Source: Halopseudomonas salina
GTDB lineage: Bacteria > Pseudomonadota > Gammaproteobacteria > Pseudomonadales > Pseudomonadaceae
Assembly: GCF_008641105.1 (NCBI RefSeq)
Contig: NZ_VTTI01000001.1
Coordinates: 517,750-581,749, forward strand
DNA: 64,000 bases
Reading direction: 5' to 3'
Of the stretch, positions 16,227-37,535 are shown in pieces. Position 1 is the first letter of the stretch, and every line of letters begins with the position of its first letter. The position numbers and the translations under genes are program-made. Below the pieces are notes generated by a model. It was not told the DNA's origin, ran no database searches, and saw only the letters and a program-made list of their open reading frames with translations.

Positions 16227-16232
16227 GGGGCA

Positions 16233-16260: not shown

Positions 16261-16291
16261 CGACAGTGGCCTTGCGGCCAGGGGTTGAACC

Positions 16292-17419: not shown

Positions 17420-17763
17420 ATTTTTCTCCTGGAAATGGTAAGAGTTCTGGTCCTGAGGGCTTGCGTGACCCGCGTTGCTGAACGCTCTGATCATAACGCT
17501 GATTGTGGCTAAAACATCGCCATGGCAACCGATCACCGCCGTTTATGCCTCCTGAAACGTCGATTTTAGCCGCTACTTTTGCGTTTTCACGCTATTGGCA
17601 AAACGCCATAAGTCACGCAAGATCAACAGGCTGCGAGAATTTTTCGCACCCCCTCGGCAAGGATGCCCGATACGATGCTTTTTCGATCTATCGCCGCCCG
17701 CGCGCCCGGGCCGGCGTGCGCGATCTGTCCGCGGTAACCCACTAACTACCACGGAAGACCTTC
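17420..17763. other. Divergent intergenic region, 344 bases
   Basis: Lies between the divergent dehydrogenase and lipoprotein genes, so it should hold both promoters. A GC-rich, self-complementary patch (CGCGCGCCCGGGCCGGCG) is at about 17698-17715. No gene or clear operator was seen. Confidence 0.5.
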
Positions 17764-22964: not shown

Positions 22965-23259
22965 GGGATACTCGAATAAGGGTCTGTTGTAATTGTTTTA
23001 TCCGCTTGCGTGCTGCGTCTATTGACATTCGCAAAGCCTGTCTATGGTAAGAGATTGCGGGCCGTGTCTCAATGCTTGTGTGCCGGGCAATGTGCCACAG
23101 ACCGGCACGGGCAGAGGGTTCTCTGCAGGCGACTCGCAAGATGGTCACACAATTGTCCTATTCCGGCAGTACGGTTGACGCATGTCTGTTATGTGGTGGC
23201 AGGTGAGCCTTCGCCGCCTGATGACGGTTTTCTCGACAATCAGCAGGAAGACAAAAGTG

Positions 23260-23982
23260 ATGAAGGAAGACAACGAGGTCTTTACCCAGCACATATCCAC
23301 GCAGTTCAACGAGGATCTGGAGGGCATCCGCACCCAGACGCTGGAGATGGGCGGTCTGGTCGAGAAGCAGATCAATGACGCCATCACCGCGCTGATTGAG
23401 GGAGACGCGGTCCTCGGTGAACAGGTGCGCGCCGCTGATGATCTGGTTAACCAGATGGAGCGCAAGATTGACGAGGAGTGCATGCGCATACTCGCGCGGC
23501 GCCAGCCCGCCGCCAGCGATTTGCGCCTGATAATGTGCATAACCAAGATCGTTGTGGACCTGGAGCGTATTGGTGATGAAGCGTCGAAGATCGCCAAACG
23601 GGCCCTGCTGCTGGTTGACGAAGGCCAGTCGCCACAGGGTTATGTCGAATGCCGCCATATCGGTGCCCATGTGCGGCAAATGGTACAGGACGCATTGAGC
23701 GCTTTTGCGCGGCTCGACAGCGACCAGGCTTTATTGGTGGCCCGCGAGGACAAGATCGTGGACAAGGAGTACAAGAGCGCCATGCGCGAGATGGTTACCT
23801 ACATGATGGAAGACCCTCGATCCATAAGTCGCGTACTGAGTATCCTCTGGGTGCTGCGCTCACTTGAGCGGGTGGGTGACCATGCGCGAAACGTAGCAGA
23901 GCAGGTCATATTTCTGGTCAAGGGCACCGACGTGCGTTATCAGGGACTCGAGCGCATGCAGGAAACGGTCAGGAAGGATTAG
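23260..23982 (+). CDS. phoU: Phosphate-specific transport regulator PhoU
   Basis: 240-residue, all-helical negative regulator linking the Pst transporter to PhoR. Two PhoU repeats are visible, each with the metal-site pattern: KIVVDLERIGDEASKIAK and WVLRSLERVGDHARNVAE. ATG at 23260 gives the family length; the open frame starts 26 codons upstream. In P. aeruginosa phoU follows pstB and adjoins a response-regulator gene. Here no pst genes are present and that response regulator is 11 kb away. Confidence 0.95.
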   Translation: MKEDNEVFTQHISTQFNEDLEGIRTQTLEMGGLVEKQINDAITALIEGDAVLGEQVRAADDLVNQMERKIDEECMRILARRQPAASDLRLIMCITKIVVDLERIGDEASKIAKRALLLVDEGQSPQGYVECRHIGAHVRQMVQDALSAFARLDSDQALLVAREDKIVDKEYKSAMREMVTYMMEDPRSISRVLSILWVLRSLERVGDHARNVAEQVIFLVKGTDVRYQGLERMQETVRKD

Positions 23983-24122
23983 GAGAAGCTTTTCTCGCGT
24001 TTGGGGCATAGACGCGACGCCCGGTTTTGGGTATGTTTTGGGACACTGAAGCTAACTGTATCTCTGCTGGGCAGTAGAGTCATGTGACGCTTGCGATTCC
24101 TCTTCCCAACTCTGGAGCTTCC

Positions 24123-25277
24123 ATGGAGATCACTTCCTACAGTATGAATTGGCACTACCCGACCGCGATGCGTGTGGGTGCAGGTCGCATTCGTGAACTC
24201 GGCAAATCCTGTAAACAGCTGGGCATGAAGGCACCATTGCTGGTCACCGATCCAGGCTTGGCGGCGATGACCATGGTTGAAGAGGCATTGCAGAATTGCC
24301 GCGACGCTGGTTTGCAGGTAGGACTGTTCAGCAGCATCAAGGGCAATCCCACCGGTGGCAACGTGGCCGACGGGGTAGCAGCGCTGAAGGCCGGGGGGCA
24401 CGATGGCGTGATTGCCTTTGGTGGTGGCTCCGCCATCGACGCAGCCAAGGCCGTGGCGCTGATCGCACATCAGACCTGCACCCTGTGGGAAGCCGGTCCG
24501 GCTACAGTGGACGCAAGCAAGATGCTGCCGGTAGTTGCCGTGCCCACCACTGCCGGTACCGGGTCGGAAGTCGGCCAGGCGGTAGTGATCACCGACGATG
24601 AGAACCACGTCAAGCGGCCCATTTTTCACCTCAAGATGGTTCCAGGTATCGTTATCCTTGACCCGGAGCTGACCCTGGGCCTGCCGGCCAAGCTCACTGC
24701 AGCAACCGGGATGGACGCCCTGGCGCACAACCTCGAAGCCTATTGCACACCGGTCTACCATCCAATGGCAGAGGGCGTAGCTCTGGAGGGTATGCGGCTG
24801 GTCAAGGAGTTTCTGCCCCGTGCAACGGCCAACGGTCAGGACGTGGATGCCCGTCAACAGATGTTGGTGGCGTCGAGCATGGGGGCGGTTGCCTTCCAGC
24901 GGGGCCTCGGCGCCATTCACGCGGTATCGCACAGCCTTGGCGCTCTGTATGACAGCCACCACGGTTTGTTGAACGCTATTGTCATGCCCTATGTTCTGGT
25001 AGCCAATCGAGCGGCCATCGAGCCGGAAATGCAGCGGTTGGCACGTTACCTGGACTTGCCTACTGCCGGTTTTGAGGGCGTTCTGGAGTGGGTTCTGGCA
25101 CTGCGCGCGGAACTGCAAATCCCCCACACGCTGGCCGAGATCGGCATGGACGACACCCAGGCAGAACTGGTCGGCAAGATGTCAGCCAAGGATGTCGCAG
25201 CCAGAACCAACGCTCTCAAGTTTGATGCCGGCCAGTATCAGCAGCTGTTTCTCAATGCCCTGCGCGGGGTGCTCTAG
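24123..25277 (+). CDS. Iron-containing alcohol dehydrogenase
   Basis: 384-residue group III (Fe-dependent) NAD(P)-linked alcohol dehydrogenase. NAD-binding region GGGSAIDAAKAVAL at about 100; PTTAGTGSEVG at about 143; metal ligands in GMDALAHNLEAY, HAVSHSLGALYD and SHHGLLNAI. ATG at 24123 has GGAG upstream and fits the family start. Substrate range in this family is broad and cannot be read from sequence. It converges with the 11-gene operon across a hairpin. Confidence 0.93.
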   Translation: MEITSYSMNWHYPTAMRVGAGRIRELGKSCKQLGMKAPLLVTDPGLAAMTMVEEALQNCRDAGLQVGLFSSIKGNPTGGNVADGVAALKAGGHDGVIAFGGGSAIDAAKAVALIAHQTCTLWEAGPATVDASKMLPVVAVPTTAGTGSEVGQAVVITDDENHVKRPIFHLKMVPGIVILDPELTLGLPAKLTAATGMDALAHNLEAYCTPVYHPMAEGVALEGMRLVKEFLPRATANGQDVDARQQMLVASSMGAVAFQRGLGAIHAVSHSLGALYDSHHGLLNAIVMPYVLVANRAAIEPEMQRLARYLDLPTAGFEGVLEWVLALRAELQIPHTLAEIGMDDTQAELVGKMSAKDVAARTNALKFDAGQYQQLFLNALRGVL

Positions 25278-25309
25278 GATATTTCTCAAACTTCACTATC
25301 AAGATGCAA

Positions 25310-25339
25310 GCCGCGGCATGGACCAGTTCCTGCCGCGGC
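25310..25339. terminator. Hairpin between convergent Fe-ADH gene and the 11-gene operon
   Basis: GCCGCGGCA and TGCCGCGGC form a perfect 9-base stem with a 12-base loop. It lies 33 bases past the dehydrogenase stop and 7 bases past the end of the last operon gene. Neither side has a strong U-tract. Confidence 0.55.
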
Positions 25340-25345
25340 TCGTCC

Positions 25346-26032
25346 TCAGGCCAGGGTAACCTCAATGCCGGCACCGACCATAACTATGCTGCCTGCTTCC
25401 GGCTCCTGCATGGTGATTTTCCTCTTGGCTGCAGGTGCGTCTACGGCGTTGCCCTGTTTGTCTACGGCCGAGAGTTCCTGATCCAGCAACTCGGCAAGCT
25501 GTAGTGCCTCTTCCCAATTTTTGTCTATCAGGGCGGGTACCACACGAATCTCGCTGGCGCGTGCCGGCGCGGGCACCGGCACGATCTTGAAAGTCACCTT
25601 GGCGGCGGCACTGGACTGAAAACCGTAGCGATTGGTCAGGTCCGCATTGACTGGTGCCGCATAAAGCCGTGCTGCCGGCAGCTGGGAATGTACCAGCCTC
25701 GAGCTGTTCAGGTCGCTCAGGTTCAACTGCGCGATCTTTCCCTTCGCTGGTATAGGGGCGGGTGGCTGGGTACGGGTGTCGCCGCTGATGCTCAGTGCTA
25801 CCTGAATCTCACCTGTGGTTTCTGGCAGGGCATAGAAAGTTGGTTGATATCCAATCTCCTGCAGCAAGCGCAGTTCAGCATCCCCCCCTTCGCTGTAGAT
25901 CGCCAGTACCTTGGCCAGCGAGCCCTGGTCCAGAGCTTCCTGGGCCTGGGCGACCCCCTGCCCGACGGCTGCAATTATTTCACCGATGGGTGCTGCCATC
26001 ACGTCGCTGACCAGATTCTTGATGGTTGTCAT
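25346..26032 (-). CDS. Module protein with PASTA-like C-terminus (operon gene 11)
   Basis: 228 residues, last gene of the operon. The N-terminus carries the shared module: GVAQAQEALDQGS at about 26, GYQPTFYAL at about 62, and FKIVPVPAPA at about 150. The C-terminal 70 residues (VVPALIDKNWEEALQLAEL, then MQEPEAGSIVMVGAGIEV) follow the PASTA pattern, a fold that binds peptidoglycan or beta-lactams in other proteins. No signal peptide or membrane segment. AGGA precedes the ATG. Family not recognised; the PASTA assignment is by pattern only. Confidence 0.8.
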   Translation of the reverse strand: MTTIKNLVSDVMAAPIGEIIAAVGQGVAQAQEALDQGSLAKVLAIYSEGGDAELRLLQEIGYQPTFYALPETTGEIQVALSISGDTRTQPPAPIPAKGKIAQLNLSDLNSSRLVHSQLPAARLYAAPVNADLTNRYGFQSSAAAKVTFKIVPVPAPARASEIRVVPALIDKNWEEALQLAELLDQELSAVDKQGNAVDAPAAKRKITMQEPEAGSIVMVGAGIEVTLA

Positions 26033-26050
26033 TGCGTTTATCCTGTGTGC

Positions 26051-27436
26051 TTAGGCTTGGGTGAAAACCACCATGATGCTCTCGCCGGGGCTTACCTGCG
26101 TGCCCTTGGCGGGTAGCTGACGTATGGCCTGACCAATCGGCAGGCTGGAGTTGGTAACGCTCTGATAGGCAGCATCCATGTTCAACCCCATATCTCTGGC
26201 CAGACGTCGGGCCAGCGTTTCGGTGAGTTCGGTGAAGTCGGGTACGCTGATCAGCCCCTCGTCTTCGCTCACGGCGGCGTCGGGCAAGAACTCCAGGTTT
26301 ACATCGGTGAACATGCCTGCTGCGCCCTTGTTGTTCAGATCCGCCAGGGTCGGCATGGTCAACTGGTTACCCGAGACCAGGGTCTTGAGGTTGAGGGACA
26401 CCTTGCCCAGTCGGTATGGCACCGCTTCGTTGTTGAGTGCCATCTGCGCCTCCTGCAACTGTTTACCGATATTGGCATACAGCTCACCAGCACCTACCTG
26501 GGTATTCATCTGCTGCTTCAGCTGTTCGGCTTCGTCCTTGGCCTTGGCGGCTTCCTCCATTGCAGCACTCGACACCTTGGCCATTTCCTTCAGGCGCTCG
26601 GTATAGCTGGTCAGTTCCAGGTTCTTGGCATTGATGGTCTGTTGCAGTTGCATTGCACGTATGTCGTAGTCTGCTGCCTGACGGATGATCTGCTCGTTCA
26701 GGTTTAGCTTCATGGTTTCGGTAGCCAGGGTGAATTGCTCGTTTACCGGTTTGCTCGAGGCAGTGGTGGCGGGCTTTGCCTTGAGCTCCCTCTCCAGCGT
26801 CGCAATCCTGCTCTGCGCCAGACGCAGCTCCTGTGTGGTCTTGAGGTTGTTCTGCTCGAGCTGCACCATCTGCATCTGTTTCTGGTTCAGCTCGGTATCC
26901 TGTAGCTCTATGCGCTTGGTCAGGTCGGCATTCATGCGCAACTGCGCGGTGCTCGGTTGTTCCACAATCTGCGGCTTTACGAAGGCTGTAATAGGCGCGC
27001 CAGCCATGGTCATGCGGGCGGTCGCAGCGCTAACTTGGGGTGCAGGCGGACGGGGTACACCGGCTATCAGGTAGTCATCTGTCTGGCTGAAGGGAGCTGT
27101 GTGGTCGCTGCGCGCGATGGCGTTATTGGCCAGACGTTGTATCTGTCCGAAGGATAGGTGAGCGGAGGTAGCCGACGCGACCTGCACCAGGCCACCTTCA
27201 GCAAGGACCCGGGCAGGCTGCCCCGAGACGCTGGCTTCACACAGGCGCATGGCCGGCAGTATTTCACCGCCGGAAGTCAGTTTGGTTTTCAGAGAAAAGC
27301 GACCCTGGGCGTTCAGTGCAGCCTTGGCCTGGGCGCGCCAGGCCTTGCGGGTCAGATCATAGATCTGCACCTGTACTGTACCGGTGGCGGGTTTGCCGTC
27401 GGCTTCCAGCACGACGCCAGTGATACTCCATTGCAT
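26051..27436 (-). CDS. Beta-domain / coiled-coil / PASTA-like protein (operon gene 10)
   Basis: 461 residues. Residues 1-105 look like a prealbumin or carboxypeptidase-regulatory-like beta sandwich (SITGVVLEADGKPATGTVQ, then LNAQGRFSLKT), a type also found in large toxin complexes. Residues about 160-330 are a long coiled coil rich in Gln, Leu and Glu. The C-terminal 70 residues (VPDFTELTETLARRLARDM, then LPAKGTQVSPGESIMVVF) follow the PASTA pattern, as in gene 11. No signal peptide, so a structural or scaffold part of a cytoplasmic assembly is inferred. Not recognised as a named family. Confidence 0.82.
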   Translation of the reverse strand: MQWSITGVVLEADGKPATGTVQVQIYDLTRKAWRAQAKAALNAQGRFSLKTKLTSGGEILPAMRLCEASVSGQPARVLAEGGLVQVASATSAHLSFGQIQRLANNAIARSDHTAPFSQTDDYLIAGVPRPPAPQVSAATARMTMAGAPITAFVKPQIVEQPSTAQLRMNADLTKRIELQDTELNQKQMQMVQLEQNNLKTTQELRLAQSRIATLERELKAKPATTASSKPVNEQFTLATETMKLNLNEQIIRQAADYDIRAMQLQQTINAKNLELTSYTERLKEMAKVSSAAMEEAAKAKDEAEQLKQQMNTQVGAGELYANIGKQLQEAQMALNNEAVPYRLGKVSLNLKTLVSGNQLTMPTLADLNNKGAAGMFTDVNLEFLPDAAVSEDEGLISVPDFTELTETLARRLARDMGLNMDAAYQSVTNSSLPIGQAIRQLPAKGTQVSPGESIMVVFTQA

Positions 27437-27446
27437 GAAGGTGTTC

Positions 27447-28172
27447 CTACGGGCTGAGAATGAGTTGGGTCAGGGTTGGGCCGCTGCTGATCAGCAGCAC
27501 GATATTGGCGTTCGCCGGGACCTTGTTGGTCAGTTCGACATCAACCTCGGCATTGCCTTGTTCGTCCGTTTCTACCACACGCTGGCTGAACTGCACCGCC
27601 GTTCTGATCTTGTCTTCGCTGAAGCTGGCTGGCGCACCAGCCAGCTCGCTAAGCTTCTGACTGGCTTCAATATCCAGATTGAACTCGATCATCGCCCCGC
27701 TGATCAGGTCGCCGGCAGTATTGCTCAAGTTGACCAGGATTTGGCGGATGCGCGGCTTGTCGGTGTTGCTCATGGCTCGCGTAACCAACCGGTTCGTGGG
27801 CAGGTTGTTGCTCGGCGGTACCGACACCAGCCGACCGCTGAAGGTACTGGTCAGCTCGGTGGAACTGCTGCTCGGTTCGGAGTTGGCGTTCAGGCTGGGC
27901 ATTTTCAGACGCAGCATGGGGATTTTCTGAATCTTGGCACTGGTCGCACCCATAGCCCGCGTTGGCGCAGCCGGAGCGGCCTGCTCGGTGGTCTCCATGG
28001 TCGCCTTGATGGTGAAGTCCAGATAGGGCAGGTGGTAGCTGCTGCGCGGTCGCCCATAGTTGTCGGTGGGCGGCATCTCGTCGAGTACGGCCTGGGCATC
28101 GCGCAGTCCCCGGGCCAGCCCGAGTAATACCTGTTCGATGGAGCTGGAAACGAATTGGCTGGATTTGCTCAT
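27447..28172 (-). CDS. Divergent module protein (operon gene 9)
   Basis: 241 residues. The N-terminus (VLLGLARGLRDAQAVLDEM) is a weak relative of the AIAxAQxxLD helix, and LVSVPPSNNL at about 130 resembles the module tail. The central FxPxFYxF motif is lost or replaced by HLPYLDF. The C-terminal 110 residues form a beta-rich domain (IRQILVNLSNTAGDLISG, then TDEQGNAEVDVELTNKVP) unlike the other members. The ATG is 2 bases after the stop of gene 8. Unknown function. Confidence 0.78.
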   Translation of the reverse strand: MSKSSQFVSSSIEQVLLGLARGLRDAQAVLDEMPPTDNYGRPRSSYHLPYLDFTIKATMETTEQAAPAAPTRAMGATSAKIQKIPMLRLKMPSLNANSEPSSSSTELTSTFSGRLVSVPPSNNLPTNRLVTRAMSNTDKPRIRQILVNLSNTAGDLISGAMIEFNLDIEASQKLSELAGAPASFSEDKIRTAVQFSQRVVETDEQGNAEVDVELTNKVPANANIVLLISSGPTLTQLILSP

Positions 28173-28174
28173 GG

Positions 28175-28996
28175 TCAGTCGGTACTCAATTGAGGTCGTT
28201 GGGCGCGGCGTTCCTGGGCTCGCTCACGCTTCATCATGTCCTGGCGTTCAGCCTGTCGTTCGGCCCGGCGCGCTTCCAGGCGCTCTGCGCGCTGTTGCTC
28301 GCGTTGTCGGTCACGGCGCTGCGCCAGGTCGTCGGTGGAGCCCGGGGCGATACCAAGCAGTTTTTCCGTGCGTTGCTTATAGCGCTGGTCGAAACTCTCC
28401 CGCGTGGTGGCGCGTTCGGTCCGGGTAGGATGCCGGGCCGCATCCAGCCGCTGTGTCAGGGGTGCCTCGACGGGTCGGGAAAGGGGTGCCTGGATGGTCT
28501 CCCTACGGCTGTTTCGCAGACGTTCCTGCGCCTTGTTGCGGGCATCGTTGACGCGCTGATCGAGGCGCTGCATCAGGCTTTGCTTCTGGGCGAGCAGCTG
28601 GCGTGCCCGATCCTCGGCCTGGCCTGCCTGGCTGTCGCGCAACGCTTGCCAGCCATCGCGGGGGGCTTGCCGAGGCCGTTGATCCAGAGCTGCGGCAGGT
28701 TCGGTCTTGCACTGTTCGTGCTGGCGCGCCCAGCGTTCCAGCTCGGCGCGGCGTTCAGCCATGCTGGCAACCGGAAAGCGCGGATCCTCCCCGGGGGTTT
28801 GCCCTGCGCGTGTGGGGCTCGACCCCAGCTCTTGCATGCGGGCCTCCAGCGCCTTGCGCTTTTCCAGCAGTGACTGCAGAGCAGGCAGCTGCTCGGCAAC
28901 GCTGGCAAGATCGGCTGGTGGGGCGCGCTGTGCCTCCCGCGTGCGTCGCCCTCCAGTCTGTTGCCGGGCCAGGTCGCGCCAGGTCTTGCGACTCAT
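28175..28996 (-). CDS. Arg/Gln-rich coiled-coil protein (operon gene 8)
   Basis: 273 residues with an extreme composition: Arg, Gln, Ala and Glu dominate, the charge is strongly positive, and hydrophobic residues are few. Heptad-like helices occur at about 30-55, 80-100, 115-160 and 215-265. No known domain. The start overlaps the end of gene 7 by four bases (ATGA), so the two are made together. It could be a scaffold, a nucleic-acid-binding protein or a length-setting rod. The real frame is supported by this coupling and by its fit in an unbroken operon. Confidence 0.78.
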   Translation of the reverse strand: MSRKTWRDLARQQTGGRRTREAQRAPPADLASVAEQLPALQSLLEKRKALEARMQELGSSPTRAGQTPGEDPRFPVASMAERRAELERWARQHEQCKTEPAAALDQRPRQAPRDGWQALRDSQAGQAEDRARQLLAQKQSLMQRLDQRVNDARNKAQERLRNSRRETIQAPLSRPVEAPLTQRLDAARHPTRTERATTRESFDQRYKQRTEKLLGIAPGSTDDLAQRRDRQREQQRAERLEARRAERQAERQDMMKRERAQERRAQRPQLSTD

Positions 28997-29526
28997 TCTT
29001 CGCCTTCCTCCTCAATCATCTTGCGGATGCGTTCCTCGAGAATCGCCGGAGGCGGCACGGTTACCAGCTTGGTCCGCATGACCGAACTGCCCTCCGCGGA
29101 ATACTGATACTTGCTGGCGAAACTGGCGGATACCGAGCTGGCTGTCATCGAGCCGGCGGCGAAGAAAGGCAACGCGCCGCCCTTGGCACTGGCTTTGACC
29201 TGATTGCGTTTGAAGGTCGAGCTGCGTTCACTGCTGACGCTGATCGATATCTTCAGCTCGATGACGGTGTCGACGAACTGATAAAACGTTGGCATGAACC
29301 CGAGTTCGAGCAGGCTGTAGGACTTGCCGTTACTGAACTCGACCTTGTAGGTCTGCTCGCTGCCACCGTCTTCGTCCTCATCAGTGCCGCTGGCGTAGCC
29401 GGCCATCATGCGCGCGATACGCAGGGACACCAGGTCCAGTTCGAGCTGCGCCTCGGCAATACCCACGCCCAGATTGCGCACCATCATCGGAAACGGGACG
29501 TTCATTAATTCCGTGCCTACAGACAT
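28993..29526 (-). CDS. Module protein, short form (operon gene 7)
   Basis: 177 residues, almost only the shared module. GVGIAEAQLELDLVSLRIA at about 21-39, LLELGFMPTFYQFVDTVIEL at about 71-90, KYQYSAEGSSVMRTKL at about 137, and VPPPAILEERIRKMIEEE at the end. Between the second and third blocks is a variable Ser/Lys-rich segment. No signal peptide. Closest to gene 6 by eye, so a recent duplication is likely. AGGAGG precedes the ATG. No named family recognised. Confidence 0.82.
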   Translation of the reverse strand: MSVGTELMNVPFPMMVRNLGVGIAEAQLELDLVSLRIARMMAGYASGTDEDEDGGSEQTYKVEFSNGKSYSLLELGFMPTFYQFVDTVIELKISISVSSERSSTFKRNQVKASAKGGALPFFAAGSMTASSVSASFASKYQYSAEGSSVMRTKLVTVPPPAILEERIRKMIEEEGEE

Positions 29527-29556
29527 GGTCGATCCTCCTGTTCAGGCTGTGGGCAC

Positions 29557-30261
29557 TCAGGCGTCTTCTTCCGCTTCGGCCGGCTGACGGCGCGCTGCGG
29601 CTTCTTCCATCATCGCGCGGATTCGTTCTTCCAGAATCGGCGGCGGCGGGACCGGCGCCAGCTTGGTACGCAACAGGCTCGACCCCTCGGCTGAATAGGA
29701 GTACTTGGACGAATAGGTGGCGTCTACCTGGCTGGTGGCCACGGTCGATGAACCACTATTCTTGCCGCCGAAAACCTTGCCGAACAGGCCGCTGGTCTTG
29801 TTCTTCTTCGAGTTCTCGGTTTTCTTGTTGCTGCGGGTGCTGGTGAACTCGCGGGTGCGGGTGATCTTGATGGCGATCTTCACCTCGATGATGGTGTCCA
29901 CGAAGTTGTAGAAGACCGGCGTGAAGCCCAGCTCCAGCATCGACAGTCGCGTCGGCACGCGGACCATGCCGTCAGCGTCCTTGTGCTTGACCGCTTCGGT
30001 CACGACCTTGGCGTAGCCGGTATCAATGGCAGCGAGCGAATTGGCCGCGTTTTCGGTCATGTATTCGTGACCAAAGAAGATCCGGCTGTCATCGAAGGTG
30101 ATGTTGCCTTCGTCATCGTAAATGGTGCGCAGGCCGCCCATCATTTCGGCGACGTCAATCGAGGCTTCGTCGAGCTTGACCTGGGCTTCGGCGATGGCGA
30201 ATGCCATCTGCCGGATCATGTCGCCCATGGGGACATTAAGTAGTTCCTGACCGATACTCAT
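29557..30261 (-). CDS. Module protein (operon gene 6)
   Basis: 234 residues. FAIAEAQVKLDEASIDVAEM at about 21, LELGFTPVFYNFVDTIIEVK at about 109, KYSYSAEGSSLLRTKL at about 190, and VPPPPILEERIRAMMEE near the end. A 45-residue insert (about 45-90) and a Lys/Ser/Gly-rich stretch (about 140-165) set it apart from gene 7. The ribosome binding site and start (AAGGAGCTGCACAATGAGT) nearly repeat those of gene 4, a sign of duplication. Unknown function. Confidence 0.82.
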   Translation of the reverse strand: MSIGQELLNVPMGDMIRQMAFAIAEAQVKLDEASIDVAEMMGGLRTIYDDEGNITFDDSRIFFGHEYMTENAANSLAAIDTGYAKVVTEAVKHKDADGMVRVPTRLSMLELGFTPVFYNFVDTIIEVKIAIKITRTREFTSTRSNKKTENSKKNKTSGLFGKVFGGKNSGSSTVATSQVDATYSSKYSYSAEGSSLLRTKLAPVPPPPILEERIRAMMEEAAARRQPAEAEEDA

Positions 30262-30279
30262 TGTGCAGCTCCTTTGAAC

Positions 30280-30759
30280 TTAGTCATCCTGATTCTGCAG
30301 GCCCTTGTCGTGCAGCCGGCGCAGTACTTCGCTGAAAGCCTCCGGGGCGGGCAGCGATACCAGCCGGGCGGCGATTGAACTGGTGCCCTCGGCGGACACC
30401 GAAAATTTGCGCGCATAGGACACATCCACGCTTGCCGCAACCATGACCACGCCGTAATTGACCCGTGCCGTCACGCCGGCTGAAACCGAGGTCTCGGTGG
30501 TTTCCGACATGCTGAATGACAGCTTTGCCTCCACTGTGGCCTCGGTGAAGGCGTAGAAGCTGGGCGCAAAGCCCAGAGTCAGCAGGTTGTAGGTTTCACC
30601 GTTGAGCTCCACCGGTGTCTCGGCCATCTGTTTGGCGACCTCGACCGAGTTGCTGTCCAGCGCCGACTGGGCCTGGGCAATGGCCAGACCGAGCCGCTCG
30701 ATGATCTGCGGCAGCGGCGCACTGACCAGGGAGCGGGTAACACTGACGGTTTCCGACAC
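30280..30759 (-). CDS. Module protein, minimal form (operon gene 5)
   Basis: 159 residues, the smallest full module. LGLAIAQAQSALDSNSVEVA at about 23, LTLGFAPSFYAFTEATVEAK at about 58, KFSVSAEGTSSIAARLVSLP at about 117, then PAPEAFSEVLRRLHDKG. Alternating beta pattern between blocks. GTG start at 30759 with GGAGGAA upstream; the preceding gene stops 3 bases before. No signal peptide. It best defines the minimum unit of the paralogous set. Confidence 0.82.
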   Translation of the reverse strand: MSETVSVTRSLVSAPLPQIIERLGLAIAQAQSALDSNSVEVAKQMAETPVELNGETYNLLTLGFAPSFYAFTEATVEAKLSFSMSETTETSVSAGVTARVNYGVVMVAASVDVSYARKFSVSAEGTSSIAARLVSLPAPEAFSEVLRRLHDKGLQNQDD

Positions 30760-30762
30760 GGT

Positions 30763-32487
30763 CTATTCCTCCAGGAAGGTGCGGATGGTCTCGAGAAATT
30801 CCGGAGGGGCCGGAATCGAGACCAGCCGTGCTGAAATCGACGAGTTACCGGTCACGTCCAGCTCGAATTTCTTGCTTTCATGCATGCTGAATGTCGCGCC
30901 TACCGCCACGGTATGGTTGCCGGTACGTCGTTGCGTCTCACGCTGGGCGGAGGTCCGTTCGAACTGTTCGGTAACCGTGATGCTTTCGCTGCTACTGACG
31001 CGCACATCACGGCTCGAGCGGGTGATCAGGCGCAGGCTGACGGGGTCGGTTTCGCGGGCCAGGTTACAGATGGCGCCGCTGGCCGATGCGGCGATCTGGC
31101 TGGCGCTATCGGCGTTGATGCTGTTGCTCAGGTTCTTGGCGAAGGCCTGGGGGCTGTCAGCCTCGAGGCCGTCTATCGCAGCCCCGGACAACTCCCAGGT
31201 TTGTCCTTCAGCGGTGACGGTCTTGCCATTGACGCCTGTCAGGGTCTGGCTATCGAAGGTATGTATCCATCCATTGGTACCGGGCTCGGAGCCATCCCGT
31301 CGGTCCGGGCTGACGCCGCTGATGGGCTCGCCATTCTCGGCATCGACCCGGATCATCTCGATATCCAGCAGAATCTCCACTCTGCGATGGGCCTGGTCGT
31401 AAGGCAGACCTTCCCGATCCCCGGGGTTGGCGCTGATTTCGCCCTCGCCGGTGGTGGTGGTGATCTGGCTTTCCTGCACACCCATGCGGATCATCTGACG
31501 CTTGACCTCGTTGGCGCGCCGCTGGGACAGATCCAGGTTGTAATCAGGCGTCGCCGGCGGGTCCGCATGCCCGACGATCTTGAAATGCAGTGAGCTGCGC
31601 GCCAGCAGAAGGGCTACTTCCTGGAGCTTGTCCAGTTGATCAGCACGAATGTTGGCGCGGTTGATGTCGAACAGAATGTTCTCGATCGGGAAGCCAGGGG
31701 GGAAAAGCTTGGCATTGAACCCAGCGTCCTCAAAATGGGTTTTGACCTTCCGTGCATAGTTGCGGATGCTGTTGGAAACGGGCACCTGGACGGTGATGTC
31801 TGGATTGACCACAAAGTCGGTGGCTGAATTGGCTGCTATGCGAATGAAACCGCAGGCGTAGCCGAAGGCCTTGAAGGCCACCGCGTTGGCTGTGCATTCG
31901 ACCAGCGCGGCACTGGCGTTGGAGGTTGGATTGATGGGGGTTTCCGTGCGGTCGAAAGCCACTGCGTCGATATCTGCATTGCCTGCCAGGGCATCCACCA
32001 GATTGTTCAGACGCGCTTCGAGATCGGGGCCGTTGACGCCAATGCGCTCATTGTTGACCACGACTTCACCGGCTGACTGGCTGGTGATCTGCAGTTTGGC
32101 CTCGCGGGTGCGGGTTTCGTTGCTGGTGCCACTCTCGCTAGTCGTTTCGCTGTTCTCTGACGACGCCTCGTTGCCGAATGTGCCGTCGTAGGCGGCGTTT
32201 ACACCCAGGTCCCATCCTGAGTTCTCTTCGACCTTCAAGCGCAGGTTCATCGAGCAACTGATGTCGGCATGCTGATAGTGGTAAAACGCCGGGCTGAAGC
32301 CCATTTCGATCAGCGTCTTGCCTCCCAGGCCGGGAATGGGCGAGATAAAGCTGTCCAACTGTTCGATGGAATTGGCATCCAGTGCCTGTTGCGCCTTCGC
32401 GATACCCAGGCCGAGACTGGAAATGAACTCGGCGACACTGGCATCGGCGAGTACCTCGCCCGGCTTTAACCCATTGTATTGACTCAT
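30763..32487 (-). CDS. Module protein with internal OmpA-like domain (operon gene 4)
   Basis: 574 residues. The N-terminus carries the module (LGLGIAKAQQALDANSIEQL, then EMGFSPAFYHYQHADI) and the C-terminus its closing tail (VTGNSSISARLVSIPAPPEF). Between them, residues about 265-380 form an OmpA_C-like domain: ENILFDINRANIRADQ, KIVGHADPP and LSQRRANEVKRQMIRMGV. OmpA-like domains normally bind peptidoglycan in exported proteins, yet here no signal peptide exists. A Ser/Thr/Glu-rich stretch lies at about 105-130. A strong AAGGAG precedes the ATG. Confidence 0.88.
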   Translation of the reverse strand: MSQYNGLKPGEVLADASVAEFISSLGLGIAKAQQALDANSIEQLDSFISPIPGLGGKTLIEMGFSPAFYHYQHADISCSMNLRLKVEENSGWDLGVNAAYDGTFGNEASSENSETTSESGTSNETRTREAKLQITSQSAGEVVVNNERIGVNGPDLEARLNNLVDALAGNADIDAVAFDRTETPINPTSNASAALVECTANAVAFKAFGYACGFIRIAANSATDFVVNPDITVQVPVSNSIRNYARKVKTHFEDAGFNAKLFPPGFPIENILFDINRANIRADQLDKLQEVALLLARSSLHFKIVGHADPPATPDYNLDLSQRRANEVKRQMIRMGVQESQITTTTGEGEISANPGDREGLPYDQAHRRVEILLDIEMIRVDAENGEPISGVSPDRRDGSEPGTNGWIHTFDSQTLTGVNGKTVTAEGQTWELSGAAIDGLEADSPQAFAKNLSNSINADSASQIAASASGAICNLARETDPVSLRLITRSSRDVRVSSSESITVTEQFERTSAQRETQRRTGNHTVAVGATFSMHESKKFELDVTGNSSISARLVSIPAPPEFLETIRTFLEE

Positions 32488-32501
32488 TTGTATAGCTCCT
32501 T

Positions 32502-33080
32502 TCAGAGAGGCGAGGCCATGCCGCTGGCGTGCAGGCGTTCGGCGGGTAGGGCAATGGCACGGGCCGGATCAACCAGCTCCTTGCGAACGATGTAGTAGTG
32601 GTGACGGCGCTGGGCTTCATCCAGTTGTCTGACTCCCACGCTGAGTCCGCGACGTATCCAGCCGAGGACCTCACGAGCCATGGGTAGCGGATGATCCCCG
32701 GCGGTAGCCAGGGCCTGCTCGATTGCTTCAACGGCGTCGTTCTGACGACCCATGCGCAGCAGAATGCTTGCGCGTCGCTGGTGGTTTTCGGCGCGGTCCC
32801 GGGCTACCAGGGCCAGCGGGGAGGCAATACGCTGGTAGTGGGACTCTGCCTCGTCGCAATAACGCAGCACGGCTTCCAGGCTGCCACTGCGTTCCAGGCT
32901 TTCCATCACGCATTGGGTGTAATGGCGGAAGAAAACTTCCGGAGCGGAGCTGCTGACGGCCATGCGCAGGGCTTCCCGGTAATGCGCGAGAGCGGACTCG
33001 TGCTGGCCTTTGAGCGCGAGCAGCTTGCCCTGTTCTGCAATTCCCAGATGCATTCCGACGTTGGCTGCGTTGGCGCTCAT
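32502..33080 (-). CDS. TPR-like helical repeat protein (operon gene 3)
   Basis: 192 residues. Helical pairs with TPR spacing at about 12-40 (GKLLALKGQHESALAHYREA), 55-80, 95-125 (ASILLRMGRQNDAVEAIEQA) and beyond. No signal peptide; probably a protein-protein adaptor. The start overlaps the stop of gene 2 by four bases (ATGA). Role in the operon is inferred only from position. Confidence 0.82.
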   Translation of the reverse strand: MSANAANVGMHLGIAEQGKLLALKGQHESALAHYREALRMAVSSSAPEVFFRHYTQCVMESLERSGSLEAVLRYCDEAESHYQRIASPLALVARDRAENHQRRASILLRMGRQNDAVEAIEQALATAGDHPLPMAREVLGWIRRGLSVGVRQLDEAQRRHHYYIVRKELVDPARAIALPAERLHASGMASPL

Positions 33081-34183
33081 GGAGAGGTCTCCTCGAATCG
33101 GTACTCGGCTTCCAGGGCGTCGAGGCCGCTTTGCAGCCAGCGTGGCAGCAGTTCGCCGAAGAGCATGTCGGAAATCCAGGGCAGGGTGGCTAGCTGCCCG
33201 GCATGCTCGATCAGCCCGCCGGTCTGCAGCAGCTCGCGGCAGCGCTCAGGTTGGGGGCAGCTTTCAACGATCAGGCGGCAGCAGCGCAGGCTTGCAAGTT
33301 GCGGCCGCACTGTCATGCCTGCTGCGGACCAGGCAGCCAGCCGGTGTTGCAGCGAGTGGGCTGGCACGCCTTCTTCGACCACTATGGGCAGGTTCTCGAT
33401 AACACAGGGCACCAGATCTGCGGGAAACCCGGCCAGGGCTGGTAGCTGTTCAAGGCAGCTATCGGAGCTGATTTGCTCCAGATTCAGGTCAAAGCGCATA
33501 AAGGCCTTGTCGACCAGCCGCAGACCACCGGCCGACTGATGCCGACGCCAGAGGTACTGGCCCTGCTGGTAATCCAGCTCGGCGCCATCCAGGGTCCCCG
33601 TCGCGTCCGCATTGATGCCCATGCGTTGCAAGTCGCCGAGCAGGCTGCTCAATGCAGTACCGCGTTGGCGACTGATAAACAGTGCGTAGCGCGCTTGTTT
33701 ACGTGCTGAACAGATCAATTCCACCGGTAGACCATCCAGCAGCTGCTGCAAGGCGTCGGCCGTGGCCTGGCTGACGTCGCCAAGAATAACGCTGGGGGGC
33801 GCCAACAACATGTTCTGTATGGCGGCGGCGGGGCAGCCGAGAAAACGCGACAGCCGCTCACAGCATGTAGCGAGGCAAGCCGGTTCACGCAGATACAGGG
33901 CAATATCCAGGCTATCTGCAGCTGTTGGTACGGGACTTTGACTGGGCTCTATACGGATGCCCAGGCCGGCCTGGCTGAGAATCTCGGCGAGACCCTGTGC
34001 ATGGGGCATGGGCAGCTTGTCGAGCAATATTGCTGGGGCCTTGTACAGAGCGCTGGCCACCTGCGAAGCTGGCATGCCCAGCTGGCTCGCCAGGACACCC
34101 GCCAGACCGGGGCTGGCTGAGCCGATGGACTCAACGATCAGACGTTGTTCGGCAGCTGGGCTGCGAAGGGTGGCTTCCTGCAT
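33077..34183 (-). CDS. Protein with three L7/L12-like modules (operon gene 2)
   Basis: 368 residues. Three stretches have the beta-alpha-alpha-beta pattern of the ribosomal L7/L12 C-terminal domain: about 15-70 (SALYKAPAILLDKLPMPHAQ), about 80-140 (LLAPPSVILGDVSQATADAL) and about 225-285 (VIENLPIVVEEGVPAHSLQH). In each, a xxxPxxxLxxLP segment precedes a helix and strand. The remainder is helical. Such modules bind protein partners in L7/L12; here they may be an adaptor array. AGGAGG precedes the ATG. Assignment by pattern, not by search. Confidence 0.78.
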   Translation of the reverse strand: MQEATLRSPAAEQRLIVESIGSASPGLAGVLASQLGMPASQVASALYKAPAILLDKLPMPHAQGLAEILSQAGLGIRIEPSQSPVPTAADSLDIALYLREPACLATCCERLSRFLGCPAAAIQNMLLAPPSVILGDVSQATADALQQLLDGLPVELICSARKQARYALFISRQRGTALSSLLGDLQRMGINADATGTLDGAELDYQQGQYLWRRHQSAGGLRLVDKAFMRFDLNLEQISSDSCLEQLPALAGFPADLVPCVIENLPIVVEEGVPAHSLQHRLAAWSAAGMTVRPQLASLRCCRLIVESCPQPERCRELLQTGGLIEHAGQLATLPWISDMLFGELLPRWLQSGLDALEAEYRFEETSP

Positions 34184-34199
34184 GTTGGCCTCCTGCCAT

Positions 34200-35024
34200 T
34201 CAGTCCGGTACGCGCCCGAAACCGAGCAGATTGTTCATCCGTGAATAAACGTAATCGAACACTTTTACCGGCGCCGGGAACGGGCCTTTATTGCCCTCGA
34301 TCACGTAAAGAATGCCGCCTTCGCTGAGCTCGACAACCATGCCGATATGTCCGGCGTGGGGGTTCCCGGGTACATCTCGGGTCCAGACCACGATATCGCC
34401 AGGTTCCGGTAGCTGCCCTTTGCGTGGGTCTATGCGCCAGCCGCGGCGGGTAAACTGATTAAGTATGTCGCGGGCACCCAGGCTGTAGTTGTACGGGCAA
34501 CCCTGGGGGTGCTGGCTATAGCACCAACTGACGAAGCCGGCACACCATGGAAGGGGTGATTTACCGTTGGGATGCAGATACTTGCGCACGAACTCGCCGT
34601 TGTTATTGCTGCCGATTTCGCGGGCACCGGCTTCGCGCTCTTTGAAAGCCATTTGCAGTGCTAGGCGGCCCCGAGCCGAGCCTCCACGTGCAAGTGTCGG
34701 GGTGCTGGCCACTGCATCCAGTGGTTCAGCCTGCGGTACAGGATCTTCGATGTGCACCAGGCGCCACGCTGTCAGGGCGCCAACCAGTCCGTCCACGGCC
34801 AGAGGTCTGCCGCGTTCGTCCAGCTGTGAGGCTTGAAAGGTGCGCACCGCGCGCTGGGTTGCCAGGTCGAATATAGCGCCGGGCTTGTCTACCAGGCCCA
34901 GGGTGTGGAGACGCTGGTTCAGATAGCTGACCATGTCGCCCCTGGAGCCACGACGCAACAGATTGCTGCGCACGTGATCGAGGAAAGCCTGGGCTGGCTG
35001 ATCGATTTTGCGAGACTTCGTCAT
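34200..35024 (-). CDS. Leaderless PG-binding/CHAP peptidase (operon gene 1)
   Basis: 274 residues, first gene of the operon. Residues about 25-90 form a PG_binding_1-like domain (RRGSRGDMVSYLNQRLHTLG, then ATQRAVRTFQ). Residues about 145-265 form a CHAP or TIGR02594-type papain-like amidase/endopeptidase: catalytic Cys in PLPWCAGFVSWC, His in HAGHIGMVVEL, and EGNKG after it. No signal peptide or membrane segment, so to reach peptidoglycan it would need lysis, a holin or delivery by the operon's own assembly. A G-rich ribosome binding site precedes the ATG. Confidence 0.88.
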   Translation of the reverse strand: MTKSRKIDQPAQAFLDHVRSNLLRRGSRGDMVSYLNQRLHTLGLVDKPGAIFDLATQRAVRTFQASQLDERGRPLAVDGLVGALTAWRLVHIEDPVPQAEPLDAVASTPTLARGGSARGRLALQMAFKEREAGAREIGSNNNGEFVRKYLHPNGKSPLPWCAGFVSWCYSQHPQGCPYNYSLGARDILNQFTRRGWRIDPRKGQLPEPGDIVVWTRDVPGNPHAGHIGMVVELSEGGILYVIEGNKGPFPAPVKVFDYVYSRMNNLLGFGRVPD

Positions 35025-35088
35025 AATACCCCCACTCCGTGTGACGGGTATCGACGACTGCGACGCCAGACGGCGTCCTGACGATATA

Positions 35089-35109
35089 AAGGTCGCGAAA
35101 TGCGACCTT
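35089..35109. promoter_or_regulatory. Perfect inverted repeat upstream of the 11-gene operon
   Basis: AAGGTCGC, 5 bases, GCGACCTT. It lies 65 bases upstream of operon gene 1. A second, smaller inverted repeat (GACGCC-AGAC-GGCGTC) is at 35062-35077. Either could be an operator or a leader hairpin. Confidence 0.45.
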
Positions 35110-35208
35110 GGAACATAAGATCAGCCAAGTTTTTGAGGCTGTCAATGATGGCCACAATGATGGCAGAGACATTTTTTCAGCTTTATCTCTCCTGCCTTCG
35201 CCGGAATG

Positions 35209-35222
35209 TGACCAAAAGGTCA
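35209..35222. promoter_or_regulatory. TGACCAAAAGGTCA palindrome
   Basis: A perfect 14-base inverted repeat with a 4-base A-tract, 71 bases upstream of the response-regulator start. It lies in the shared divergent region, so it could act on either gene. Candidate operator; binder unknown. Confidence 0.42.
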
Positions 35223-35292
35223 TTTATTCATGGGTATGGTTTGCACTCGGTCTGAGCTAAGCTAGCCGAGTAACCAGGCGAAGAGAAACGAG

Positions 35293-36225
35293 ATGGCTAG
35301 AGTGTCGGCCCTGGTAGTGGATGACGCCCCTTTCATCCGCGACCTGGTAAAAAAAGCATTACGCAGCCAATTCCCCGGCTTGCAGATTGAAGAGGCCGTT
35401 AATGGCCGCAAGGCTCAGCAGGTGCTGAGTCGCGCGGCCTTTGACCTGATTCTGTGTGACTGGGAAATGCCGGAGATGAGCGGGCTCGAGCTGCTGCAAT
35501 GGTTCCGTGGTCAGCCCGGTTCCGAGAAGACGCCCTTTATCATGGTGACCAGCCGCGGCGACAAGGAAAATGTCATCGAGGCCATTCAGGCCGGTGTGAG
35601 CGATTTTATCGGAAAGCCCTTCACCAACGAGCAACTGGCGGCCAAGGTTAAAAAGGCGTTGCATCGCAGCGGCAAACTACAGGTGCTGCAGGGCCGTCAG
35701 GCTCCGGCCAGCGGCGGAACTGCGCAGGATTCGGTCGCCAACCTGATGGGGGGGCGCAAGCCTGATAGCGGTTCGAATTCTGTTGCGGCCTCACCCGCAG
35801 CTCCGCCGGAGATCAAGCCCGCAATCAGTGAAACCGGCGCTACGGACTCCGATACTACCGATGTGCAGGACCGCCCGGCCACCCAACAGGTGCGTGGCCA
35901 GGCGCAATTGCGCTTGGCCGGCGGTCAGTTTGCCTGTGTGGTCAAGACCTTGAGCCTGCGCGATGCGCTGGTAGTGGTCCGACGCAGCGAACATATGCCG
36001 CAAGTATTCGAGAGTGGAGTGCTTGATCTGGAGCAGGACGCGGACAAGAGTGTCGCGCGCATCAACGCCTACGTGCACGCGGTAGCGTCGATGGAGCCGA
36101 CAATGGATTGCGAATGGATCAAGGTTACCCTGAAGTTCGTCGATCAGGATCCGCAGAAATTGGACTACCTATCACGCCTGATCGCGTCCGGCAGTGCTCA
36201 ACGGCACTATTCGCCAAGCGCCTGA
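35293..36225 (+). CDS. Response regulator with degenerate PilZ-like C-terminus
   Basis: 310 residues. Residues 1-125 are a CheY-type receiver with intact acidic pocket (VVDDAPF), phospho-acceptor Asp in LILCDWEMPEMSG, and the Thr/Lys positions (MVTSRG, GKPF). A low-complexity Ala/Pro/Ser linker (about 135-195) follows. The C-terminal 110 residues (QVRGQAQLRLAGGQFACVV to the end) have a PilZ-like beta pattern but lack the c-di-GMP motif RxxxR. In P. aeruginosa a response regulator occupies the position between phoR and phoU. It is divergent from the 11-gene operon across 268 bases. Confidence 0.85.
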   Translation: MARVSALVVDDAPFIRDLVKKALRSQFPGLQIEEAVNGRKAQQVLSRAAFDLILCDWEMPEMSGLELLQWFRGQPGSEKTPFIMVTSRGDKENVIEAIQAGVSDFIGKPFTNEQLAAKVKKALHRSGKLQVLQGRQAPASGGTAQDSVANLMGGRKPDSGSNSVAASPAAPPEIKPAISETGATDSDTTDVQDRPATQQVRGQAQLRLAGGQFACVVKTLSLRDALVVVRRSEHMPQVFESGVLDLEQDADKSVARINAYVHAVASMEPTMDCEWIKVTLKFVDQDPQKLDYLSRLIASGSAQRHYSPSA

Positions 36226-36242
36226 ATGAGCGGCCGGGCGGC

Positions 36243-37535
36243 TCAGGCGTCCCGGCTTGCGGGGAAATGACAGGTGAAGACGCTGCCCGTGCCCAGGGTA
36301 CTTTTGATCTCCAGCCGCGCCCCATGGCGTAACAGCACATGCTTGACAATAGCCAGCCCCAGACCTGTTCCGCCGGTATTGGTGCTACGGCTTGAATCCA
36401 CGCGGTAGAAGCGCTCGGTCAAGCGGCTGATGTGCTCGGGGGCGATGCCCGTCCCGTTATCACTTACGCTTACATGGGTGCCGTTCTGATCCTGCCAGCA
36501 GCGAATACTGATCTCGCCCTGGTCGGACGTATATTTGACCGCATTGAAAACCAGGTTGGAAAATGCGCTGCGCAGCTCGGCATCGGCGCCAAGCAGGCGT
36601 ATCGCCGGGTCTGTGTCCAGGTGAATCTGATGCCCTCGCTCCGCTGACAGGGCCTGAGCGTCCTGGGATACCGACTTGAGCATCTGACTGATATCCACAG
36701 ACTTTTTTTCGACAGCGCGATCGTCGTTTTCCAGGCGGGCCAGCATCAACAGGTCGTTGAGCAGATTCTGCATGCGCTTTGACTGCTGTTCCATCTGCTG
36801 CAAGGCTCGCTTCCAGCGCGGATTGATAGGTTCATCGGAATCCTGAAGGGTTTCCAGATAACCCACCACAACGGTAAGCGGGGTGCGAAGTTCATGGGAA
36901 ACGTTGGCAACGAAATCCTTGCGCATCTGTTCAAGGTTATGCAGCCGAGTGGTGTCTCTGACCACTATCAGGCGTTCGCCCTGACCATAGTGCGTAATGG
37001 TGTACTGCAGCCAGGCGCTCGCGTTCAGATGGGATGCAATGTCCAGCGGCTCGCGAAAATGATCAGCTTCGAAATATTCGACGAATCGCGGATCACGCAA
37101 CAGATTGGTCACGTGTTGGCCACTGTCATCAGGGGCACGAAAGCCCAACAGGCGTTCGGCCGCATGGTTCCACCATTCCAGCCGGCCCTTGGCATCCACC
37201 ATGACCACAGCGTCACTCAGTGCTGCAGTTGATGCCTGAATCCGGTCGATCACCAGCTGCTGTTTTGCTCGCATGCGACTGTCGCGGCGTTGTATTCGGT
37301 AGATGTTATCGAATATCTCTCCCCACAGACCCCGGGTATCCGGTGGGGGATCATTGCGCTGCACACTCAACCATTGCACGAAGCGCGTCATCTGTCGCAG
37401 ATGCCAGGCTACATACAGGCTCAGTCCGACTACCAGGCCCCAGGCAATCTGACCGACCAGCATGCCTCCCAGAACACCTGCCAGTAACAGCCAGAACAAT
37501 AATTTGAACACGCTACCTGTCAAGTGTGTGCGCAA
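36243..37535 (-). CDS. phoR: Phosphate regulon sensor kinase PhoR
   Basis: 430-residue inner-membrane histidine kinase responding to phosphate limitation through Pst-PhoU. Two hydrophobic segments at about 10-45, a PAS domain (about 95-205), the phospho-acceptor region FVANVSHELRTPLTVV at about 215, and the ATPase boxes N (FSNLVFNAVKYTS), G1 (VSDNGTGIAP), F (FYRVD) and G2 (GGTGLGLAIVKH). The apparent start is TTG at 37535; the next ATG would cut the first membrane segment. It follows phoB after 73 bases. Confidence 0.94.
   Translation of the reverse strand: MRTHLTGSVFKLLFWLLLAGVLGGMLVGQIAWGLVVGLSLYVAWHLRQMTRFVQWLSVQRNDPPPDTRGLWGEIFDNIYRIQRRDSRMRAKQQLVIDRIQASTAALSDAVVMVDAKGRLEWWNHAAERLLGFRAPDDSGQHVTNLLRDPRFVEYFEADHFREPLDIASHLNASAWLQYTITHYGQGERLIVVRDTTRLHNLEQMRKDFVANVSHELRTPLTVVVGYLETLQDSDEPINPRWKRALQQMEQQSKRMQNLLNDLLMLARLENDDRAVEKKSVDISQMLKSVSQDAQALSAERGHQIHLDTDPAIRLLGADAELRSAFSNLVFNAVKYTSDQGEISIRCWQDQNGTHVSVSDNGTGIAPEHISRLTERFYRVDSSRSTNTGGTGLGLAIVKHVLLRHGARLEIKSTLGTGSVFTCHFPASRDA

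Follow-up and report, generated by a model that had tools for sequence, protein, structure and literature searches.

Ten conserved genes, six of them paralogous, suggest an undescribed bacterial protein assembly acting at the cell wall

INTRODUCTION

What might a bacterium build from a run of tightly packed genes that repeat one protein module next to peptidoglycan-binding and peptidoglycan-cutting domains, with no export signal in sight? The question is raised by a 64,000-nucleotide stretch of the Halopseudomonas salina genome (contig NZ_VTTI01000001.1), here called the window, in which eleven minus-strand genes lie between positions 25346 and 35024. We named them g1 (34200-35024) to g11 (25346-26032) in transcription order. 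An initial annotation, made without database searches, had treated all eleven as one operon encoding a particle or filament that meets peptidoglycan, perhaps after lysis. We found that the conserved unit consists of ten genes, g2 to g11, and that g1 is accessory. The content of this block points to a protein assembly, as yet undescribed, whose site of action would be the cell wall.

RESULTS

A conserved block of ten genes

The eleven open reading frames (ORFs) are located where the initial annotation placed them and are packed as tightly as it described, with intergenic gaps from g1 to g11 of 16, -4, 14, 3, 18, 30, -4, 2, 10, and 18 bases:

g1, 34200-35024, minus strand: 274 amino acids (aa), PG_binding_1-like domain and CHAP peptidase, no visible signal peptide; accessory
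g2, 33077-34183, minus strand: 368 aa, N-terminal region like the C-terminal domain of ribosomal L7/L12; opens the conserved ten
g3, 32502-33080, minus strand: 192 aa, TPR protein (Pfam and NCBIfam)
g4, 30763-32487, minus strand: 574 aa, module paralog with a large insert bearing an OmpA-like domain (residues ~272-364)
g5, 30280-30759, minus strand: 159 aa, smallest complete module
g6, 29557-30261, minus strand: 234 aa, module with an extra insert past the first helix; Gly/hydrophobic GLFGKVFGG in the tip region
g7, 28993-29526, minus strand: 177 aa, module; tip GGALPFFAAGS
g8, 28175-28996, minus strand: 273 aa, Arg-rich, probably coiled coil; no family
g9, 27447-28172, minus strand: 241 aa, sixth module paralog; its C-terminal domain is beta-rich and looks Ig-like by eye only
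g10, 26051-27436, minus strand: 461 aa, N-terminal beta domain (by eye), coiled coil, C-terminal PASTA domain
g11, 25346-26032, minus strand: 228 aa, module with a C-terminal PASTA domain

A scan of 84,980 species genomes with g6, the query used for the collection scans, returned 125 stretches encoding a relative, and the best 80 of these 125 were compared as loci with L numbers. ORFs were picked in each locus by a simple rule, and some apparent gene absences are mis-picked ORFs. A colinear block from g2 or g3 to g11 (25346-34183 in the window) was spanned in 67 of the 80 loci, 60 of which had at least 1 kb on either side. Within the 67, g6, g9, and g11 were recognized in every locus, g5 in 65, g7 in 64, g4 in 60, g2 in 58, and g3 in 56. 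An ORF filled the place of g10 in 66 and, despite diverging sequence, that of g8 in 63. Sequence matches to g1 were limited to L001, L002, and L065 among the 80 loci, the last having a CHAP relative. Recurrence as a unit outside Pseudomonas had been set beforehand as a check on the operon, and it was found in several phyla; of the eleven genes first grouped together, g1 alone drops out.

The carriers include Gamma-, Alpha-, and Betaproteobacteria, Bacteroidota, Acidobacteriota, Planctomycetota, Gemmatimonadota, Opitutales, Myxococcales, and one Latescibacterota metagenome-assembled genome (MAG). We take all of them to belong to diderm phyla, save for L058, which is also a MAG. In a protein search, g6 found 2060 proteins at an E value of ≤0.001, and no Pfam domain was present among the 120 matches listed. 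In the g6 family, one source labels two public proteins (P0021 and P0082) as ribosomal protein S12 methylthiotransferase RimO, apparently a mis-annotation.

Domains and hydropathy of the encoded proteins

Scans of the Pfam, NCBIfam, and PHROGs libraries, together with ortholog profiles, bore out the CHAP, L7/L12-like, TPR, OmpA-like, and two PASTA domains that had been named in the initial annotation. The CHAP domain of g1 was confirmed, and its PG_binding_1 domain scored 21.4 bits, just below the 23-bit cut-off. The g2 ortholog profile matched the L7/L12 C-terminal domain (1ctf) at an E value of 1.1e-5, and PF00542 was matched at E 0.1 by 22 of 59 g2 orthologs, not including g2 of the window. 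The PASTA domain of g10 scored 31.8 bits against a cut-off of 23.2. For g11, the ortholog profile matched PknB at an E value of 2.2e-11, and the window protein alone scored 18.7 bits, below the Pfam cut-off. The N-terminal beta domain of g10 gave only a transthyretin match (E 0.25). No credible Pfam or NCBIfam family was found for g5 to g9. In PHROGs, endolysin and tail-lysozyme families were found for g1 and OmpA-type families for g4, all other rows being at chance level.

Export and membrane signals were judged by hydropathy (KD19), without a dedicated signal-peptide predictor. By this measure, g1 to g11 contain no membrane-grade hydrophobic stretch (maximum KD19, 1.51), and just 4 of 721 orthologs exceeded the limit. 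Nor did any of the eleven proteins credibly match an ATPase family, so the lack of signal peptides, membrane segments, and ATPases reported earlier holds in these terms. Matches of g10 to SMC (E 0.028), LmuB (8e-4), and DndD (0.005) are coiled-coil cross-matches. Promoter and terminator scans of the operon were not above chance (1 versus 2.8 expected; 5 versus 9.3 expected), and its base composition showed no strong deviation.

A shared module in six of the ten proteins

Paralogy of the module was tested by profile-profile comparison of ortholog sets drawn from the fetched loci. Five products, g4, g5, g6, g7, and g11, matched one another at 96 to 100% probability. The sixth, g9, which had been called a weaker member from the start, matched g11 at 94.2% and 95.8% and the g5 set at 83.6%. 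Its matches to the alignment of g5 (A3) and to a mixed alignment of g7, g5, and g6 (A9) reached only 32.1% and 47.2%, respectively, which makes g9 the most divergent member. By these profile comparisons, the module has six members: g4, g5, g6, g7, g9, and g11. The g8 protein showed no relation to the module in profile-profile comparison. A helix match placed g10 at 3 to 6%, too weak for a module paralog; g10 shares its PASTA domain with g11.

In the predicted module, a long amphipathic beta-hairpin stands between two helices. The AlphaFold2 model of g5, with a mean predicted local distance difference test (pLDDT) value of 65, places a helix at residues 16 to 47, strands at 67 to 84 and 121 to 137, and a helix at 140 to 157, with residues 82 to 125 below pLDDT 50. 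The g7 model (mean pLDDT, 69) has confident helices at 12 to 41 and 161 to 176 and confident strands at 81 to 92 and 147 to 157; its strands 99 to 108 and 131 to 140 lie in a stretch below pLDDT 50. The two models agree on an N-terminal helix, long antiparallel strands, and a C-terminal helix, the distal hairpin being below pLDDT 50 in both. Hydrophobic and polar residues alternate along the hairpin more than in shuffled sequences, with a mean z of 3.78 for g5 (z > 2 in 98% of 58) and 2.78 for the g7-led alignment (68% of 93), compared with -0.24 and -0.18 in the helix control. The tip regions of g5 to g7 bear Gly/hydrophobic runs.

The position of the OmpA domain in g4 bears on the same hairpin. 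In the window protein, the module is found in two pieces, at residues 10 to 105 and 503 to 571, and 67 of 71 OmpA-bearing module ORFs are divided likewise. On the 155 columns of the module, the first piece ends at column 101 (median; 98 to 132) and the second starts at column 91 (73 to 103), so located that the OmpA domain splits the module near the predicted hairpin tip. Gene 4 carries the OmpA domain in 53 of 62 loci and is a plain module of 173 to 191 aa in L057, L075, L077, and L078. In L071 and L076, the gene 4 homolog is a 560-aa protein with a non-OmpA insert at the tip, and both loci have an extra module-like gene past g11 (318 and 309 aa). Since OmpA and other inserts are located at the predicted tip, this part of the module tolerates large domains.

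Foldseek and VIA searches with the g5 and g7 models returned no significant match in the PDB. For g7, the top 20 rows of Foldseek consisted of phage collar or tail entries, flagellar-ring entries, and pore-forming toxins with their relatives, none better than chance (E 0.2 to 1.6); the rows for g5 were more mixed. We use the g7 rows as a hint only, and a fold that is not listed is not evidence of a new fold. Among solved structures, neither the g5 nor the g9 profile found a relative.

DUF2589 is the nearest family

The family closest to the module is DUF2589 (PF11655). Along its length, g5 matched this family at 85 to 91% (A3 at 85.2%, E 6.1e-6; other versions at 89.7% and 91.1%). The mixed alignment A9 matched at 79.9% (E 1.4e-5) and g7 alone at 39.5% and 76.5%, and no score above 2.2% came from the reversed A3 and A9 alignments or from any of 26 decoy families. 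On their own, g4, g6, g9, and g11 did not reach DUF2589 in profile-profile comparison; for g11 the reversed control scored 7.5% versus 0.5% for DUF2589. The Pfam DUF2589 model matched none of the window proteins and, at E 0.1, none of 58 g5-type proteins. We read the tie as a distant superfamily link and not as membership, probably through common ancestry for g5 and, less firmly, for g7. DUF2589 proteins share the order of helix, strand, tip, strand, and helix, and their profile found only a chance row among solved structures (E 0.21). The family is itself of unknown function, and the searches found no relative of known function, in line with the earlier remark that no described system has this content.

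The DUF2589 neighborhoods examined lack the ten-gene set. In six of eight, the DUF2589 protein is followed by another whose N-terminal helix looks similar, with a profile likeness of only 13 to 30%, and a wall peptidase is close by in two of the eight (CHAP in L136, M15 in L134). Shortly past the DUF2589 operon of L137, a 1,398-aa ORF (2622-6818) looks by eye like what we take to be an SpvB/Tc-type toxin-complex component. A 4-kb unannotated fecal contig titled Bacteriophage sp. (MT839761.1, 3329-3859) encodes a DUF2589 relative with 27.7% identity over 95% of the query. One Kordia genome (G005, L080) combines the ten-gene operon with three DUF2589 matches elsewhere. In the plasmid collection, the only match, a distant one, was on Sphaerotilus plasmid NZ_CP035710.1 (L138), where 14643-17422 is a five-gene mini-version of the block with clear modules s2 and s3, a g10-like s4 (E 1.9e-6), and a coiled-coil s5 that matches g10 weakly (E 0.022). 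In a five-sequence search s2 matched the DUF2589 profile at 3e-5, and as it is also a clear module, it may bridge both groups. A tandem DUF2589-related gene region in the archaeon Archaeoglobus is reported to be up-regulated on lactate (PMC3949148).

Peptidoglycan hydrolases recur beside the block

Of the 94 adjacent same-strand genes, 86 were scanned, from 47 of the 80 loci. Twelve of the 86 encode peptidoglycan hydrolases: seven Amidase_2, the commonest family there, three CHAP, one GH108, and one Peptidase_M74. These four families are unrelated to one another. The hydrolases are spread over 11 of the 80 loci (L001, L002, L034, L057, L059, L064, L065, L066, L076, L077, and L078), and no adjacent hydrolase was found in the other 69. 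Among 93 genes located farther away, none of the four families appeared in the 25 of 102 families listed, so weak singletons may be hidden there. The Fisher P value for adjacent versus farther genes was 9.9e-5 with 0 of 93, 8.9e-4 with 1 of 93, and 0.015 when eight lineages were set against 1 of 93. No membrane-grade stretch was present in the 11 neighbor hydrolases tested (the L001 fragment was left out, and the start codon of L065 is uncertain). In L064 (14687-15796) and L066 (14718-15755), single ORFs beside the operon fuse an Amidase_2 domain with a CobU domain.

In Pleionea (L076), the block is followed by the extra module gene, a GH108 endolysin (phrog_315), and then a holin with three transmembrane segments (phrog_3427). 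A holin was found in L076 only, and no holin-like or membrane protein was recognized among g1 to g11 of the window. The recurring, unrelated hydrolases and this one holin support the part of the initial annotation that concerned contact with the wall; a particle, and its release by lysis, would still be a prediction.

An arrangement of this kind might also be expected if the block itself encoded a giant holin. From the cytoplasmic side, the assembled paralogs would drive a large barrel of hairpins across the inner membrane, bringing the OmpA tip into the periplasm and giving the hydrolase a way out. The Gly/hydrophobic tips of g5 to g7, the beta alternation, and the insertion of OmpA at the tip are consistent with this, as are neighbor hydrolases lacking a visible export signal and the rarity of a separate holin, seen in a single locus. 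The PASTA domains, however, are on the helix side and would stay cytoplasmic, Pleionea does have its own holin, and most loci lack an adjacent hydrolase. We consider a giant holin unlikely.

The 69 loci in which no hydrolase neighbor was detected may instead suggest that the product never leaves the cell. It would then be a permanent scaffold, filament, or compartment in which the OmpA, PASTA, and L7/L12-like domains act as protein-protein modules and the hydrolases are incidental or a rare specialization. The hydropathy of the window proteins and their orthologs fits such a product, and so does the reported response of the archaeal tandem region to growth substrate. But unrelated peptidoglycan hydrolases are enriched near the block, two different families of peptidoglycan-binding domains are present within it, and the carriers among the 80 loci, but for the MAG L058, belong to diderm phyla. 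We consider an intracellular structure unlikely as well.

Distribution of the block and its site in the genome

The block is rare, and in each of two genera genomes carry all of it or none. Seven module matches were present in each of 8 genomes from the genus of the window and none in the remaining 29 of its 37; in Caulobacter, 9 of 75 genomes had the block, again all or none. In a spread of 398 Pseudomonadota genomes, the block was present in the center genome alone. In one set of genomes, all 12 had their module matches confined to a single locus, and in another set 7 of 8 did. The planctomycete genome behind L074 (G601) has 13 module matches on two contigs, which may mean that the system is duplicated there or that the assembly is split. 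In a midpoint-rooted FastTree topology of 77 tips, without support values, classes and phyla are intermixed, which suggests horizontal transfer of the block, individual transfers being suggestions only. L018, the Latescibacterota MAG, groups with Halomonas in this tree and may therefore be mis-binned, and the operon copy of L058 is in a MAG titled Propionibacterium. L060 (CP034120.1) is titled Glaciecola amylolytica, and its operon and flanks match Fluviicola (L062, L063, and L068), so the record is possibly mislabelled.

In the window, the operon is within the pho region (23182-37535), flanked as follows:

left flank, 23182-23982, plus strand: phoU
left flank, 24084-25277, plus strand: presumably an alcohol-dehydrogenase-like (ADH-like) gene
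right flank, 35293-36225, plus strand: response regulator
right flank, 36243-37535, minus strand: sensor kinase, which we take to be PhoR

The insertion site looks fixed in this genus. In 17 of 22 congeneric loci without the operon, the ADH-like gene abuts the response-regulator gene. Over 30 loci from the 37 genomes, the neighbor of the response regulator was g2 in 7, the ADH-like gene in 17, phoU in 4, and none of these within reach in 2, one of which (L152) is from a carrier genome whose contig ends there.

Outside the ten genes, no neighbor is conserved across lineages besides generic regulators and peptidoglycan hydrolases. Apart from such regulators, flanking genes are common to close relatives only. 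This bears on the idea of an envelope-anchored apparatus that is assembled in the periplasm after non-classical export. OmpA and PASTA domains in mostly diderm carriers would suit an apparatus of that kind, but no exporter, lipoprotein, or membrane component was recognized in the block and no conserved neighbor could serve, making it quite improbable.

DISCUSSION

The recruitment of wall enzymes, the block of six paralogs, the two kinds of peptidoglycan-binding domain, and the lack of a visible export signal are most simply explained by a product that meets peptidoglycan. In the account that we favor, with a probability of roughly 0.4 for the whole, a hetero-oligomeric ring or barrel assembly is built in the cytoplasm and reaches peptidoglycan on lysis. 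Rings or a tube would arise from the six paralogous subunits, which would share a beta-barrel or collar, and g2, g3, and the coiled-coil proteins g8 and g10 may be assembly or linker parts. Peptidoglycan would be gripped by OmpA at the hairpin tip of g4 and by the PASTA domains of g10 and g11. With no visible export signal on any part, the assembly would reach the wall only once the producing cell is opened. An exchangeable hydrolase, here g1 and in one case accompanied by a holin, could open the producer cell or ride on the particle to cut the wall. Like the ring or barrel, the roles of g2, g3, g8, and g10, and release by lysis, action on peptidoglycan or on a membrane is inferred. A broader proposal, that the block represents a new class of extracellular machine with a DUF2589-superfamily ring or tube, one large hairpin barrel, peptidoglycan-binding tips, and an exchangeable wall-cutter, spread among diderms as a ten-gene unit and released by programmed lysis, is a speculative one that we hold with some doubt.

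That the main subunit of a ten-gene unit found in Pseudomonadota, Bacteroidota, Gemmatimonadota, and Opitutales has no name in the libraries searched leaves bacterial annotation with a substantial gap. A lysis-released, wall-binding particle would join the few bacterial protein machines released by lysis, and DUF2589 would acquire a functional setting along with a hypothesis that can be tested. Knock-out and microscopy work is practical in the cultured carriers, which include Halopseudomonas, Caulobacter, Halomonas, Kordia, and Pleionea.

Among known systems, the block might be thought a degenerate prophage, tailocin, extracellular contractile injection system (eCIS), or gas-vesicle cluster, given the endolysin and holin neighbors. 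A viral-library structure search gave a top row at E 3.4e-3, a nameless entry (A0A516MP19), and the g10 coiled coil matched PHROG tail and head families weakly, at E 0.06 to 0.12 only. The module, on the other hand, had no above-chance match in Pfam, NCBIfam, or PHROGs, where g5 to g7 gave nothing better than E 0.2. Neither g5 nor g6 had a tblastn match in 50,697 phage records, and the g6 alignment had none in IMG/VR. Pfam and NCBIfam recognized no eCIS sheath, tube, or baseplate, capsid, or AAA+ ATPase in the ten genes, no eCIS component in lineage-shared neighbors, and no Gvp family. Only g1 matches endolysin and tail-lysozyme families, and the placing of the module outside phage-tail, eCIS, and gas-vesicle families stands; we regard a degenerate cluster of this type as very improbable. 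Scanned with g2 to g11, anti-phage defense models in PADLOC gave cross-matches only, to the g10 coiled coil (LmuB, again at 8e-4, AbiEii, and DndD) and the OmpA region of g4 (ZorB, 1.9e-5). A search of open-license articles in PMC returned no description of the operon under DUF2589/PF11655, the domain combination, or the Microcystis tube structure entry.

Likenesses of a more general kind are found with three sorts of system. Aerolysin-type pores, phage collars, and FliF/FlgH rings resemble the predicted subunit in general shape and fill the non-significant top rows of Foldseek and VIA, but no match is significant and the block has six hetero-paralogs in place of one subunit. The membership of g4, g10, and g11 in the OmpA-like and PASTA (PknB) peptidoglycan-binding domains is clear. 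Such domains are usually attached to kinases, penicillin-binding proteins, or outer-membrane proteins, whereas here they are on module or coiled-coil proteins without a visible export signal. YenTc is reported to be a large cytosolic complex released by a holin/endolysin lysis cassette (PMC10847046); the block showed no tie to Tc toxins. Such cassettes differ from the block in that the hydrolase here is exchangeable and usually not found; they resemble it in the endolysin-type enzymes beside the operon and, in Pleionea, in an endolysin and a holin encoded directly downstream.

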